From the NCBI RefSeq assembly GCF_003589925.1, contig NZ_CP032382.1, positions 3,658,001 to 3,722,000 of the forward strand: a stretch of DNA of 64,000 bases, written 5' to 3'. Within the stretch, counting starts at the first letter, position 1. Every line of letters begins with the position of its first letter. The DNA is from Chryseolinea soli (GTDB lineage: Bacteria > Bacteroidota > Bacteroidia > Cytophagales > Cyclobacteriaceae). Below, piece by piece: positions 4,972 to 34,187 of the stretch. The position numbers were made by a program, and so were the translations under genes. The notes under the pieces are model-generated. The model saw nothing but the letters and a program-made list of their open reading frames with translations, did not search any database and was not told the origin of the DNA.

Positions 4972-5004
4972 AGAAACAGGCGTACGTACGCCTGTTTCTT
5001 TATA
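4972..5004 (+). terminator. Rho-independent terminator after beta-helix lipoprotein
   Basis: A perfect 28-bp palindrome (4972-4999) centred on GTAC, with half-site AGAAACAGGCGTAC, followed by a T-rich run. It closes the receptor-lipoprotein unit. The next gene starts only about 15 bases further on, so partial read-through is possible. Confidence 0.75.
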
Positions 5005-28940: not shown

Positions 28941-29687
28941 TTAAATTTCGATTATCATGTTTTTGTCAAAGCCGTTGTAAGGTTCATTTATATATCCATG
29001 GGGATTACAAAGTACCGTGGTGTTGCCGACCTGGTAGTTGGCCGGTGTATGGATGTGTCCATGAATCCAGTAGCGTGGCTGATATTTTAAGATAACGGAT
29101 TCCAAATCGGATGCATAGGCACTGGAGAGGATGTTGTCTTTTAGTTTTTCGGGTATCGATTTAATACTTGGTGCATGGTGGGTGATTACAACATTTTTTT
29201 CAGTGGTCGTTAATTCTAGGCTAGACTTGAGCCACGTCAAAGACGCCTGATGAATAATATAGGTGTCAATGGAACGAAGCTTGGAGAAAGAAGGATCCCT
29301 CCGGATATATTTGTAGTCGTTCATTTTTTGCTGGCAGATACTCCCATTAATTTTGGGATCGCCAAGTAATGCAAAATCTGTCCATAGTGTTGCTCCGTGA
29401 AAAGTAATATCGTTAATAACAATACTGTTATTTTCCAGAACATAAACATTCGTGTCAATGGATTGGCTTTTTATGCTGTTTAATGTCTTAGGAAAACTTC
29501 CTTTGTAATACTCATGATTCCCGAGCACATAAAGAACGGGGATATCTTTGATCACTGATTTAATCCATTCGATTCCTTTAGTTCCCAGATTTACATCGCC
29601 TGCAAAGATGACCAAGTCCGCATTATTAAAGCTGAAATCCAGAGATCCAAACTCCTGATGTAAATCACTAACGACTTGTATCCGCAT
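28941..29687 (-). CDS. Calcineurin-like metallophosphoesterase
   Basis: 248 residues with the full metal-binding set: SDLH near the N-terminus (Asp8, His10), FAGDVN, GNHEYY, THHAPS and WIHGHIHTP. It should be a dinuclear metal phosphoesterase acting on phosphodiesters or nucleotides in the cytoplasm; no signal peptide is visible. It is divergent from the AbiEii-like toxin gene, sharing a 107-bp promoter region that holds a 14-bp palindrome. Whether it belongs functionally to the toxin-antitoxin locus is unknown. Confidence 0.92.
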   Translation of the reverse strand: MRIQVVSDLHQEFGSLDFSFNNADLVIFAGDVNLGTKGIEWIKSVIKDIPVLYVLGNHEYYKGSFPKTLNSIKSQSIDTNVYVLENNSIVINDITFHGATLWTDFALLGDPKINGSICQQKMNDYKYIRRDPSFSKLRSIDTYIIHQASLTWLKSSLELTTTEKNVVITHHAPSIKSIPEKLKDNILSSAYASDLESVILKYQPRYWIHGHIHTPANYQVGNTTVLCNPHGYINEPYNGFDKNMIIEI

Positions 29688-29717
29688 GCATCAAATCAAA
29701 ACAACTAATAGTGAAAC

Positions 29718-29731
29718 TCGTAAATTTACGA
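29718..29731. promoter_or_regulatory. 14-bp palindrome in the divergent promoter region
   Basis: TCGTAAATTTACGA, a perfect palindrome located between the metallophosphoesterase start (29687) and the AbiEii-like start (29795). Its outer CGTAAA/TTTACG arms resemble those of the fourth palindrome in the array at 31.9 kb. Candidate operator. Confidence 0.4.
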
Positions 29732-29794
29732 AGCAACGGGATCGAAACAACCTGATTATTTTATATTTTTAGAAGAAACTTAATCCGATCCTTA

Positions 29795-30679
29795 ATGGAT
29801 ATTCACATAGTAAATCGAATAAAGCGGTTAGCCATTATTGCCCTGGCTTCTGATGATGAGCTGGTCGAAGCACTGGTGTTGAAAGGAGGCAATGCGATCG
29901 ATTTGTCCTATCAGCAACAGGGTATTGGCCACGGCGCCCGAACATCCTTTGATCTGGATTATTCAATTGATCATGGTGATTTCGATAAGGACCTACCTAT
30001 CGCCGATAGGATAGAACGGACGTTGGCCCAGACCTTTAATGAAGACGGATATACCATGATTGACTATAGTTTTGGCCCCAAGCCGAAGATTGCGCGTGAA
30101 GAGGTGGCCGATTTCTGGGGTGGTTACAAAGTCGAATTCAAAGTGATTTCAAATTCCCTTTATGAGGAAAACAAAGAAGACCCGAAGAAATTGAGCAGGA
30201 TGTCAATTCCTGTGAATATGGATAACTCACCCAAATTCGAACTTGAATTCAGTAAGTTCGAGTTTGTTGAGAAGAAGGTCGAAGCTCATGTGGATGGATT
30301 TAAAATTTACGTCTATACGCCAGAAATGATCGTGTTTGAGAAAGTGCGCGCATTGTGCCAGCAGCTGCCTCGTTATAAGGAGGTAGTACCTTCTTTCAGT
30401 CCCCGTGCCCGAGCAAAGGACTTCTACGATATTCATTTAATGGTAGAACAGTATAAAATTGATCCGGGGACAACGGAAAACCTGGAGCTGATTCAGAATA
30501 TTTTTTCTGCGAAGAAAGTCCCTGTAGGTTTTATTAAAGATCTTCAGTCAGGCAGTGCCTTTCATGCTGACAACTGGAAAGATGTTGTAGTTACCTTACC
30601 CGCATCAGAAGCATTGGAGACCTTTGAATACTATCGTGATTATGTGGTAAACAAATTTGCGAGCCTTACATTCCCTTAG
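29795..30679 (+). CDS. AbiEii/AbiGii-family nucleotidyltransferase toxin
   Basis: 294 residues. Nucleotidyltransferase core: LVLKGGNAIDL (the GG motif), then TSFDLDYSI with the DxD metal-binding pair; later conserved segments VFEKVRALCQQLPRY and RAKDFYDIHLMVE match the AbiEii family (PF08843). Characterised members are toxins that add nucleotides to target RNA and are held in check by AbiEi antitoxins. Here the antitoxin-like gene lies on the opposite strand, and the two stop codons overlap by 14 bases. In typical loci both genes are in one operon, antitoxin first, so the arrangement is unusual. Confidence 0.88.
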   Translation: MDIHIVNRIKRLAIIALASDDELVEALVLKGGNAIDLSYQQQGIGHGARTSFDLDYSIDHGDFDKDLPIADRIERTLAQTFNEDGYTMIDYSFGPKPKIAREEVADFWGGYKVEFKVISNSLYEENKEDPKKLSRMSIPVNMDNSPKFELEFSKFEFVEKKVEAHVDGFKIYVYTPEMIVFEKVRALCQQLPRYKEVVPSFSPRARAKDFYDIHLMVEQYKIDPGTTENLELIQNIFSAKKVPVGFIKDLQSGSAFHADNWKDVVVTLPASEALETFEYYRDYVVNKFASLTFP

Positions 30680-31532
30680 GATAGTAAAGTCTCCACCCTT
30701 TGTCGTAGTCTTTTTCTATCATATCATAAGTCAAATAGAAATCATATCGCATTTCCTTCTCGCGAAGAACCCGGAGCTTTCCAGCGTCAAGCCCCGCCTT
30801 TTCCAAGTAAAAGCCAATTGGTTGATGATAAGGGTATATGAAGTTAAATCGGTCTAAAATGGCCACTAGTTTATTTATCGATATTTTATCCAAGGCCCGT
30901 CGGTATGCTTCGAGAACTGAATCAACGCCGCCAGCATAGTCAGGTCTCACAGCGATATCTATTAATGTTCTTTCGATGTTGGTTACAGGAAGATCATTTA
31001 AAGTAAATACTCCGGATCGATTTGAGTACATGCCGTTATGCACCAAAAAAGTATATTCCTGGAATGTAGTAGTGTTAGCAGATTTTCGCTGAGGTTTGGC
31101 AAATGCTGAATTGATAGCACTTTGCTCCAATGTTCTGTTAATATTCTGCTTCTTACTTTGTTCAAATGAAATGTAGATAGTCTTAGGGACCTGGTTGGTT
31201 AACCCATTAAGGAATACGGCAGAGTAATGTGATAAGTACGATTTGTTTATCAACGACACAGCAACTTGAAAAACCGAAGCTTCCTGAGAGAGAAATCTTT
31301 CCTTATTCGCTTTTAAGCCCTCCAAGTAGAACACATTCTTAAACAAGATCTCGCTATTTGTCAGCTTCTCGGTGAATTTCTCAACATTCATAGAGGCGGG
31401 GAGATTCCAGTTAGCACGATTATCCTCCAATACCTGATCCAACTGGGCAAGGCTATAAACCTTAGTCGAGTCATTCTTAAAGAATGACTTAATGCTACTT
31501 TCCGCAATTATGAATCGGGATTTGTTAGCCAT
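30666..31532 (-). CDS. AbiEi-like antitoxin/transcriptional regulator
   Basis: 288 residues. N-terminal winged-helix-like region (about 8-70: SIKSFFKNDSTKVYSLAQLDQVLEDNRANWNLP), then the antitoxin core with YLSHYSAVFLNGLTNQVPKTIYISFEQ, GVFTLNDLPVTNIERTLIDIAVRPDYAGG and VLEAYRRALDKISINKLVAILDRF, matching AbiEi-type proteins. It should neutralise the AbiEii-like toxin and repress its own promoter. A 24-bp perfect palindrome lies only 4 bases before its start codon and three related palindromes follow upstream. Tail-to-tail overlap with the toxin gene (30666-30679) could produce antisense control. Confidence 0.85.
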   Translation of the reverse strand: MANKSRFIIAESSIKSFFKNDSTKVYSLAQLDQVLEDNRANWNLPASMNVEKFTEKLTNSEILFKNVFYLEGLKANKERFLSQEASVFQVAVSLINKSYLSHYSAVFLNGLTNQVPKTIYISFEQSKKQNINRTLEQSAINSAFAKPQRKSANTTTFQEYTFLVHNGMYSNRSGVFTLNDLPVTNIERTLIDIAVRPDYAGGVDSVLEAYRRALDKISINKLVAILDRFNFIYPYHQPIGFYLEKAGLDAGKLRVLREKEMRYDFYLTYDMIEKDYDKGWRLYYPKGM

Positions 31533-31560
31533 AAAATAGTAAAGTATATATACTTTACTA

Positions 31561-31568
31561 CAAAGTTA
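31561..31568 (-). promoter_or_regulatory. Likely -7 promoter element of the AbiEi-like gene
   Basis: On the minus strand this reads TAACTTTG, an exact match to the Bacteroidota -7 consensus TAnnTTTG. The predicted transcript would begin inside the adjacent palindrome, leaving a very short leader. The other palindromes are preceded by TAACTTTA, a near match. No clear -33 element is visible. Confidence 0.6.
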
Positions 31569-31652
31569 GTCATTTAAAACTACATTTTGGCTTATGCACC
31601 TGGAAATATTTTCTCGGGAAGGGAAGTTCCGCAGGTAATTGATAATAGTCAT
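31566..31652 (-). CDS. Possible 28-residue micro-ORF between palindromes 1 and 2
   Basis: ATG at 31652 abuts the second palindrome exactly and encodes MTIINYLRNFPSRENISRC followed by ISQNVVLND. Its stop overlaps the promoter element of the antitoxin-like gene. The equivalent spacer between palindromes 3 and 4 encodes a related peptide tail (KNISGRFQRQSQF) without an obvious start. It may be a leader peptide or a chance frame in a duplicated block. Confidence 0.25.
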   Translation of the reverse strand: MTIINYLRNFPSRENISRCISQNVVLND

Positions 31653-32101
31653 TTTAATAAAGTATATATACTTTATTAAAGTTAGTACTTTAAGAACTAA
31701 AAAGCTATGATAGTACCAATAAAATAGCGGCAATGAGATAAATATAGTTCTTTATCTATCACATATATAAAGTATATATACTTTATATAAAGTTAATGAT
31801 TAAAATTGACTTTGGCGCTGAAATCGCCCGGAAATATTTTTTTGATAAAGCGGCTGGGTTTGAAACCTAATAATGCATTTATTCGTAAAGTATATATACT
31901 TTACGAATCACAGTGGAATAGGAACTGCGTCACCGAAACGGGTTTTGGTAAGGCGTCCTTTTACTTCAATGCACTTTCCCTATGTTGCGGTTTAATGGTG
32001 TAGTAACCGGGTTTTCAGGGAACAAGTGAGGGACTGGGAAAACGCGTGTAACCAGAGTTCAGTTGAACTGGTTCGCTTATGCCGGGTGGCTGGAATAGCA
32101 G

Positions 32102-33286
32102 CTAATGGGATGGTGGGTTAAGGGTAGAAGCTTTTTGACGGATGAAAAGATGGGTCGGGAGATCTTGAACCTGTTCACAACACAGTTGTTCCATTACTTG
32201 CTGCAGTTGCGTCTTGAGCAGCGAGATCACGTGATTGCCACCAGACGGTCCCAACGCAGCCACGCCATACATGAATGATCTTCCTAGAAAGGTGAAGTTT
32301 GCGCCGGCAGCCAGCGCTCTGGCTATGTCCGGCCCAGAACGAACGCCGCTATCCATGAGTATTTTAATCTTGTTCGCAAATTTGTCTACGATTGGTGCTA
32401 AAGAGCGGATGGAAGATTGACCGGCGTCGAGTTGCCGGCCACCATGATTGGAGACAATAATGCCATCCAAACCAAGTCTGACGGCCATCTCGGCATCCTC
32501 GAGGCTGGCCACGCCTTTGAGGACCAGTTTGCCATTCCATTTGTTGCGTATGGCAGAGATTCTTTGCTCATTGAGCCGGCCAGAAAATGTGCGATTCATA
32601 AACTGTCCGAGTTGTGACATATTAAGTCCGCTGGGCATGTACTGCTTGAGTGTGGCGAATTCGGGTTGGCCGTGAAAGAGCGTTTGAAGTGCCCAGGTGG
32701 GCCGCAATGAAATTTGTAACATGTTTTGAAGGGTCATCCGTGGAGGCATAGCCAAACCGTTACGGATGTCGCGCGGACGAAATCCAAAAGAAGGAACGTC
32801 GCAGAGTAAGACCAAAACCTGGCATTGGACCTCGGTCAGTCGTTTGATGATGTTGTCGCGCAAGGAATTTTCTGCCGGATGGTACAATTGAAACCAAGCT
32901 CTGCCTTGGGTTAATTCACTCACCCGTTCGATGCTTGCAGTCGTTACCGTGCTAAGTGTAAAAGGGATGTTATGGTCGTATGCTGCCTTGGCTAGAATTT
33001 CCGTGGCACCGGGCCACATCAGGCCCTGAAGGCCTACAGGGGCCACTCCGAAGGGCGCATCATAGGTATGTCCAAAGAGTTCCGTCTTTAAATCAGGCGT
33101 GGTGTAGGGCTTGAGATACTGCGGTATTAGTTCTATCTCGCGCAGTTCACGCGTATTCTTCTCTAGGTTAACATCCTCGTTGCAGCCCCCGTCCAAATAT
33201 TCGAAGGCAAAACGGGGAATGCGTTGTCGTGCACGTTCACGCAAATCCTCGATGGAAGGATACCGTGTGTCGAATTGCAATTTCAT
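32102..33286 (-). CDS. FMN-dependent alpha-hydroxy-acid oxidase/L-lactate dehydrogenase-like enzyme
   Basis: 394 residues from the ATG at 33286; a TTG at 33313 is less likely. FMN-dependent alpha-hydroxy-acid dehydrogenase fold: RARQRIPRFAFEYLDGGCNED, APVGLQGLMWPGATEILAKAA, the Lys-containing KLVLKGVASLEDAEMAV, the catalytic His in IVSNHGGRQLD, and the phosphate-binding ILMDSGVRSGPDIARALAAGA. It oxidises L-2-hydroxy acids such as L-lactate to 2-oxo acids. As last gene of the fucose operon, it would convert the lactate released by the upstream FAH-type hydrolase into pyruvate. The lactate assignment is inferred from context. Confidence 0.9.
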   Translation of the reverse strand: MKLQFDTRYPSIEDLRERARQRIPRFAFEYLDGGCNEDVNLEKNTRELREIELIPQYLKPYTTPDLKTELFGHTYDAPFGVAPVGLQGLMWPGATEILAKAAYDHNIPFTLSTVTTASIERVSELTQGRAWFQLYHPAENSLRDNIIKRLTEVQCQVLVLLCDVPSFGFRPRDIRNGLAMPPRMTLQNMLQISLRPTWALQTLFHGQPEFATLKQYMPSGLNMSQLGQFMNRTFSGRLNEQRISAIRNKWNGKLVLKGVASLEDAEMAVRLGLDGIIVSNHGGRQLDAGQSSIRSLAPIVDKFANKIKILMDSGVRSGPDIARALAAGANFTFLGRSFMYGVAALGPSGGNHVISLLKTQLQQVMEQLCCEQVQDLPTHLFIRQKASTLNPPSH

Positions 33287-33323
33287 AGTCTGCGTTGTAG
33301 TATTCTCCAACAAATAGATTCAG

Positions 33324-34187
33324 TTAGGCAGGTTGCTCCTCATAGGATACAGCGATCTGTCGTTGGGTGCCTAACCTGTCGATACCGAGTTCAATGACGT
33401 CGCCTGGGCGAACGAATCGCGGGGGTTTCAATCCCAGTCCAACCCCGGAAGGGGTTCCAGTAGAGATCACATCCCCTGGTAAGAGCGTCATGAATTGGCT
33501 AATATAGCTAATTAGAACCGGTACCGGGAATATCATGTCACTGGTGGTCGAGTCCTGCAGCCTTTCGTTATTCACCGTCAGCCACAGGGACAGATTGTTG
33601 GGGTCTTCGATTTCATCCGCGGTCACCAGCAGCGGGCCCAGTGGCGCGAAGGTATCGGCGCTTTTTCCTTTTACCCACTGGCCGCCTCGTTCCAATTGAA
33701 AGGCACGTTCACTGTAGTCGTTATGCAAGGCGTATCCGGCGACGAAGTCGAGTGCACGGCGCTCCTCAACATGTCTTGCTACTTTGCCTATGACGACGGC
33801 GAGTTCGACTTCCCAATCCGTTTTGAATGATCTCTTTGGAATGACTACGTTATCGTAAGGACCGCATAATGCCGTTGTAGACTTGAAGAATAGTATAGGT
33901 TCTTTCGGAATGGGCGCGTTGGTCTCATGGGCATGTCGGACATAGTTAAGGCCGACGCAGATGATTTTGCTTGGCCGGCTTATGCAGGAACCGAGCCGGG
34001 CATCTGGCGGTACCACAGGACAGTTTTCTAAATTCGCGCCGAGCCATTTTTCAAGCCTGGCAAGCCCATCGCTTTCAAAAAAACGCTCATTGTAATCCTC
34101 GCCAAATCTGGAGACGTCGAGCCTTGCCTGTGCTATGATCACTCCGGGACGTTCTTTGCCCAGGGGGCCAAATCGAAATAATTTCAT
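33324..34187 (-). CDS. FAH-family hydrolase, probable 2,4-diketo-3-deoxy-L-fuconate hydrolase
   Basis: 287 residues of the fumarylacetoacetate hydrolase superfamily. N-terminal cap (1-70), then the catalytic domain with KIICVGLNYVRHAHE, metal-ligand motif DWEVELAVVIG, YALHNDYSERAFQ, WVKGKSADTFAPLGP and ISTGTPSGVGLG. In oxidative L-fucose catabolism a member of this family cleaves 2,4-diketo-3-deoxy-L-fuconate to pyruvate and lactate. The adjacent SDR would make that substrate and the downstream FMN enzyme would use the lactate, which strongly supports the assignment. 18-base gap to the preceding SDR gene. Confidence 0.88.
   Translation of the reverse strand: MKLFRFGPLGKERPGVIIAQARLDVSRFGEDYNERFFESDGLARLEKWLGANLENCPVVPPDARLGSCISRPSKIICVGLNYVRHAHETNAPIPKEPILFFKSTTALCGPYDNVVIPKRSFKTDWEVELAVVIGKVARHVEERRALDFVAGYALHNDYSERAFQLERGGQWVKGKSADTFAPLGPLLVTADEIEDPNNLSLWLTVNNERLQDSTTSDMIFPVPVLISYISQFMTLLPGDVISTGTPSGVGLGLKPPRFVRPGDVIELGIDRLGTQRQIAVSYEEQPA

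Follow-up and report, generated by a model that had tools for sequence, protein, structure and literature searches.

A tandem array of palindromes with self-complementary arms before an AbiEi-like gene of Chryseolinea soli: a putative promoter-operator of a convergent AbiE-like module

What keeps a set of palindromes perfect when the letters of their outer arms differ from copy to copy? The question is raised by the window, a 64,000-nucleotide stretch of the Chryseolinea soli genome (contig NZ_CP032382.1, positions 3,658,001 to 3,722,000), in which four perfect palindromes of 24-28 bp each lie upstream of an AbiEi-like gene (Table 1). Their 16-bp cores start at positions 31541, 31659, 31769, and 31887. 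This agrees with the first-pass annotation, which had reported the core four times at start-to-start distances of 118, 110, and 118 bp. The annotation had also described flanks that are unlike between the copies yet perfectly complementary, and this was confirmed in all four. Four matches to the core with up to two mismatches occur in the window, where none is expected by chance (100 shuffles: mean 0.00, largest 0). Allowing one mismatch, the 16-mer is found at only these four places in the whole 8.24-Mb genome. The inner 10-mer has five genome occurrences, and in the fifth just one base of the flanks pairs.

The array had further been described as two diverged 228-bp blocks, and this duplication holds for one half only. 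The whole blocks, palindromes included, align at 45.5 against a shuffle maximum of 20.5, and the spacers that follow palindromes 1 and 3 resemble each other (15, with 9.5 the highest value among shuffles). The spacers after palindromes 2 and 4 show no resemblance (-9.5, equal to the shuffle mean). Because the sequences are palindromes, all four fold as single strands into stems of 10-12 bp with a 4-nt loop, at -5.5 to -9.3 kcal/mol. As to a terminator, no run of at least five T follows any of the four on the gene strand.

Table 1. Features of the module in the window (positions are those of the window)
Feature	Position	Strand	Size or sequence	Remark
AbiEii-like nucleotidyltransferase toxin gene	29795..30679	+	294 aa	Pfam AbiEii 58.5 bits, cut-off 22.5
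AbiEi-like regulator/antitoxin gene	30666..31532	-	288 aa	PADLOC AbiEi 7.2e-20
Palindrome 1	31537..31560		24 bp, perfect	4 bp from the AbiEi-like start codon
-7-like box	31561..31568	-	TAACTTTG	fits Bacteroidota -7 box TAnnTTTG; abuts palindrome 1
Palindrome 2	31653..31680		28 bp, perfect	
-7-like box	31677..31684	-	TAACTTTA	overlaps the edge of palindrome 2
Palindrome 3	31764..31789		26 bp, perfect	
-7-like box	31788..31795	-	TAACTTTA	overlaps the edge of palindrome 3
Palindrome 4	31881..31908		28 bp, perfect	without adjoining TAnnTTT box

The toxin gene is assigned to AbiEii by Pfam (1.3e-15) and by PADLOC (1.2e-12). The AbiEi-like protein scores 21.4 bits with Pfam AbiEi_1, just below the cut-off of 22.2, and 27 of the 28 members of alignment A1 match AbiEi_1 at E<=0.01. 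It has no NCBIfam match at E<=1 and, by sequence, no relative among solved structures at E<=1. The window regulator is thus predicted, by homology only, to be a member of the AbiEi family.

The two genes are convergent, with 3' ends that overlap by 14 bp; the co-directional bicistronic operon of AbiE is not what the window contains. The same order prevails among relatives. The related loci number 83, the best 80 of 181 confirmed loci (L023-L102) and L006-L008, which were obtained by searching 196 genomes from the family of the window (18 had a match). L006 is the same locus as L036, hence 82 are distinct. A toxin relative is convergent in 74 of the 83 (73 of 82 distinct) and co-directional in none. 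In 64 of the 74 the frame of the toxin relative is open over 250 aa or more; in the other ten it is partial, broken, or cut. In seven other loci no toxin relative was found though the DNA is present, and the last two stop at contig ends. The pair is also convergent in 11 of the first 12 plasmid records, in one of them with both genes split; plasmid locus L152 has no toxin annotated beside the regulator. In five Lactobacillales plasmids (L153-L155, L160, L161; Streptococcus suis, Lactococcus, and Ligilactobacillus) the pair is divergent, with two palindromes within the shared intergenic gap. Since the palindromes are present in convergent and divergent modules, they go with the regulator gene and not with one gene order. 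The regulator is annotated merely as a hypothetical protein in 21 of 22 plasmid records. The toxin frame of Belliella kenyensis (L036) is split in two and three palindromes are kept, perfect except for the central two bases.

Palindromes are a regular companion of these AbiEi-like genes. At least one strong palindrome lies within 450 nt upstream in 75 of 80 loci against 11 of 782 control windows of equal size from the same loci, and at least two in 59 of 80 against 0 of 782. A palindrome was called strong at a score of at least 12, and the score takes any palindrome regardless of its core. The 80 loci, the window included, are those with 300 nt or more of upstream sequence; the duplicate L006 was excluded, as were three loci that fell short of this length. 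Relative to the start codon, the median position of the proximal palindrome centre is -37 (range -13 to -165, 78 loci). Palindromes were also seen upstream in 14 of 16 loci outside the motif definition, a few of them imperfect (e.g., L146). In L151 a perfect palindrome, which the upstream scan did not pick up, extends across the start codon as annotated, L140 has two palindromes, and L138, outside the motif definition, has no comparable site. Ten further plasmid loci, several of which are near-copies, have palindromes in nine cases. The tenth, the Streptococcus suis plasmid L156, shows none in the scan; its scattered indels resemble sequencing error, and we give this absence no weight.

By record title, the best 80 of 181 loci and L006-L008 fall into 14 named groups, and a palindrome is found in 13; the single Verrucomicrobiota locus (L081) is without one. 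This phylum spread is that of record titles, and many records are metagenome bins that may hold stray contigs. Only 5 of 395 genomes of the class, the window's own included, have a close relative at E<=1e-30; the module is therefore widespread but sporadic. The plasmid copies indicate that it is carried on mobile DNA. In the protein tree most members cluster with others of their phylum, but several phyla are split; this does not prove transfer. The regulator has no match in 50,697 phage records, and a viral contig (L103) carries a family member with two perfect palindromes. Thirteen more distant AbiEi-like loci have no such palindrome, save one that is weak and different, and in nine of them the next gene is co-directional.

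The most telling property of the palindromes is in their arms. Among 168 distinct palindromes, picked by palindromy, positions 1-5 are nearly fixed in letters, and positions 11-13 carry 0.02-0.08 bits while 89-98% are self-complementary. Picking by palindromy favours pairing, and the count was therefore redone on sites selected solely for an exact match to the 10-bp core. This gave 147 sites in 65 of 83 loci, with full flanks at 142 sites in 63 loci. At positions 9-13 of these sites, 656 of 710 cells pair, compared to a mean of 231 and a maximum of 272 in 2000 shuffles, and to 119-221 in slid versions. The symmetry is perfect to position 11 in 109 of the 142 sites and to position 13 in 93. The letters themselves are free. 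When the copies within one locus are compared over positions 9-13, 364 of 600 arm cells differ. Sharing of letters within a locus exceeds that between loci at positions 6-9 and is close to the between-locus level at 10-11 and 13-16; position 12 retains some excess (0.39 vs 0.25). Between close relatives, paired changes were seen at positions 10, 12, and 14 (only about four independent events), and one-sided changes were confined to position 1 and to positions 12 and beyond. Twenty-eight viral copies of the 16-mer, retrieved by pattern whatever the neighbouring genes, have flanks that pair at 25-46% at positions 9-15. The claim that the flanks change in pairs is thus borne out: outside the core, what is maintained in the dyad is its self-complementarity, not its sequence. 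This suggests that the cell uses the symmetry itself, beyond sequence alone. Integron attC sites also keep a structure while the letters of their arms vary. They are recombination sites in cassette arrays, whereas the palindromes described here are placed as putative promoter sites before a regulator gene.

A -7-like box stands beside three of the four window palindromes. Across Bacteroidota, TAnnTTT precedes the palindrome centre by 14-27 nt on the gene strand at 51 of 69 sites, against 4 of 69 in the mirror orientation; 47 of the 51 also have TTG 15-24 nt further upstream (mirror, 1). These 69 sites are not independent, as many of the loci are close relatives. The Bacteroidota -7 box TAnnTTTG is described as spanning -12 to -5 (PMC9723704). 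From the position of the box, the start site would therefore lie approximately 7-12 nt before the palindrome centre. With a start inside the palindrome, some of the left outer arm would be missing from the promoter's own transcript. Within the left arm of Bacillota palindromes, a -10-like hexamer is often seen by eye, uncounted.

The first-pass annotation had considered an enlarged AbiEi operator. Arrays that accompany AbiEi-like genes in many phyla, and promoter-like sites that face the gene in Bacteroidota, are in keeping with this. The form is unlike the published one, a pair or two pairs of 23-bp repeats before a co-directional operon. The abiE locus of Streptococcus agalactiae is reported as a type IV toxin-antitoxin system in a bicistronic operon, with one pair of 23-bp repeats, 3 bp apart and with 4 mismatches, in its promoter (PMC3985639). 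It resembles our module in its AbiEi-family regulator, its AbiEii nucleotidyltransferase, and the dyad symmetry at the regulator promoter. Here, in contrast, the genes are convergent, and instead of pairs of 23-bp inverted repeats there are separate perfect palindromes of 24-28 bp, mostly 2-4 per locus among relatives, spaced by approximately 110 bp, and with arms that are free in sequence while staying symmetric. The rv2827c-rv2826c operon of Mycobacterium tuberculosis is likewise preceded by several inverted repeats, four of 23 bp within 131 bp before the toxin-antitoxin genes (PMC7319586). These are aligned by sequence consensus, and the excerpted text of that report describes no variable symmetric arms. 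In Streptococcus suis, the AbiEi of ICESsuHN105 shares 88% identity with that of S. agalactiae and is a repressor of its own promoter, where it binds IR1 and IR2; a variable palindrome array is not described in the excerpted text (PMC11062541).

Among the matches listed from open-licence literature without preprints, we found neither convergent AbiE genes nor palindromes of this kind described. Overall, the module looks like an AbiE-like variant, with homologous genes and a site that seems built to work like the AbiE operator, set apart by the absence of the operon and by the form of its repeats. A co-directional AbiE-like pair (L057:2794-4501) lies on the same contig as one member of the convergent, palindrome-bearing family and has no such palindromes upstream.

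Our best reading of the locus as a whole is an autoregulatory promoter-operator array, in which the core is read by the AbiEi-like protein and the arms are symmetric for the sake of a hairpin or cruciform. We give it an even chance. Its parts differ in strength: the putative operator function of the palindromes is probable, and the hairpin step is somewhat doubtful. On this view, an AbiE-like toxin-antitoxin module of unusual gene order would carry promoter-operators in tandem, with every palindrome at the transcription start of a promoter for the AbiEi-like gene. The AbiEi proteins characterized so far are repressors that bind inverted repeats in their promoters (PMC3985639, PMC7319586, PMC11062541), from which we infer the same for the core: the AbiEi-like protein would bind the inner 16-18 bp via sequence and repress its own synthesis. 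Cores that vary by clade fit recognition by a cognate protein. The outer positions, approximately 10-14 on each side, are held mainly by self-complementarity and hardly by sequence. This outer symmetry would most likely be kept for a DNA hairpin or cruciform approximately 14 bp long, sensed at the promoter by the AbiEi-like protein or by RNA polymerase. The array may thereby tune the supply of antitoxin to how much of the protein is present, and perhaps also to the supercoiling or strand state of the DNA. The toxin would be made from its own convergent promoter and countered by the antitoxin so tuned.

Certain observations count against this reading. A threshold of hairpin stability is not supported, because the arm length is near 14 at any arm G+C (medians 14, 14.5, and 15; Spearman +0.21). 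An A+T-rich core as a general nucleus of extrusion is not universal; the cores of Hymenobacter and of Burkholderia plasmids are not A+T-rich. In addition, 5 of the 80 loci are without a strong palindrome, and one window copy is without a -7-like box. The like arms in both copies of the Lactobacillales plasmids, and the near-perfect palindromes that persist where the toxin is absent or broken, also weigh against the reading. An array with an entirely different, less A+T-rich core was found on Burkholderia and Paraburkholderia plasmids (L143 and L145).

A dimer that reads letters leaves arms that are free yet exactly complementary unexplained, and two explanations then remain, selection for a hairpin or cruciform and template switching. 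In the latter case the protein would read the core only, and the arms would be a mutational by-product, held symmetric without selection by template switching, in which a hairpin serves as the template for copying while DNA is replicated or repaired. Pairing is 77% at position 14 but 50% at position 15, a drop which, together with a length that hardly depends on G+C, argues for a ruler such as a protein footprint and against template switching. Such palindromes are also rare elsewhere in the same loci, as the control windows show. Room for template switching is left by the tail of long arms, which reach 32 nt among the 168 palindromes and look to us longer than chance pairing, and by loci with an absent or broken toxin, which keep near-perfect palindromes. 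Arm mismatch is 11.4% in these loci vs 6.2%, a trend only (permutation p 0.08, 12 vs 63 loci). Excluded from this comparison were L047, L062, L064, and L088, all cut at contig ends; L057, whose gene likewise runs to the end of its contig; L058 and L061, which lack upstream sequence; and L093, in which no site was found. The paired changes between close relatives would also be expected from template switching. We regard this explanation as unlikely, and still deserving of weight.

A plain extended operator is quite unlikely. Here a dimer would contact all 28 bp by sequence, and the copies would be tuned to different affinities, as in the graded sites reported for Rv2827c (PMC7319586). The promoter-like positions of the sites agree with this, and the Lactobacillales plasmids named above, in which the arms are alike in both copies, look like such a plain operator. 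It gives no reason, however, for letters that are free and still complementary, or for the 364 arm cells that differ within a locus.

Hairpins in a leader RNA, acting as an attenuator or as RNA antitoxin repeats, are very improbable. In their favour, transcripts from upstream promoters would hold the downstream palindromes whole. Against them, the predicted start site lies within the palindrome, whose own transcript would miss part of an outer arm. The mismatches at positions 6-14 comprise 21 G-T, 18 A-C, and 92 others, as by chance; without an excess of G-T or A-C, neither RNA strand is favoured, and DNA rather than RNA is indicated. At gathering thresholds, Rfam has no match in the window at 29000-34000, and only tRNAs in 8 relatives. 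Of the DNA or RNA hairpin role proposed at first, it is thus the DNA form that we retain in our reading. A dispersed or mobile palindromic repeat, which the common core with variable flanks could have brought to mind, is ruled out for this genome by its four 16-mer copies at a single locus, and the similar position before one gene family in many phyla leaves the idea a negligible chance.

To return to the hairpin or cruciform reading, its wider form is rather doubtful as it stands: a widespread, often plasmid-borne toxin-antitoxin family would regulate itself through DNA hairpins or cruciforms, at sites made of a short core and symmetry-only arms, with supercoiling or strand separation switching the supply of antitoxin. 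If so, strand separation, for example during phage takeover, could switch this supply, and a regulator that reads self-complementarity would represent a new kind of operator. Operators are usually understood as conserved letters, whereas here, beyond the core, it is self-complementarity that is conserved, with many different arms and, going by record titles, across more than ten phyla. The question of whether bacteria control genes by DNA hairpins becomes directly testable in small plasmid-borne modules. The convergent loci also mark a non-operonic branch of AbiE-like systems.

The spacing between palindromes shows no clear helical phasing (mean vector 0.24-0.28, n=96). The longest palindrome found is a perfect one of 64 bp in a Deltaproteobacteria bin (L047), 186-122 nt before position 5001.
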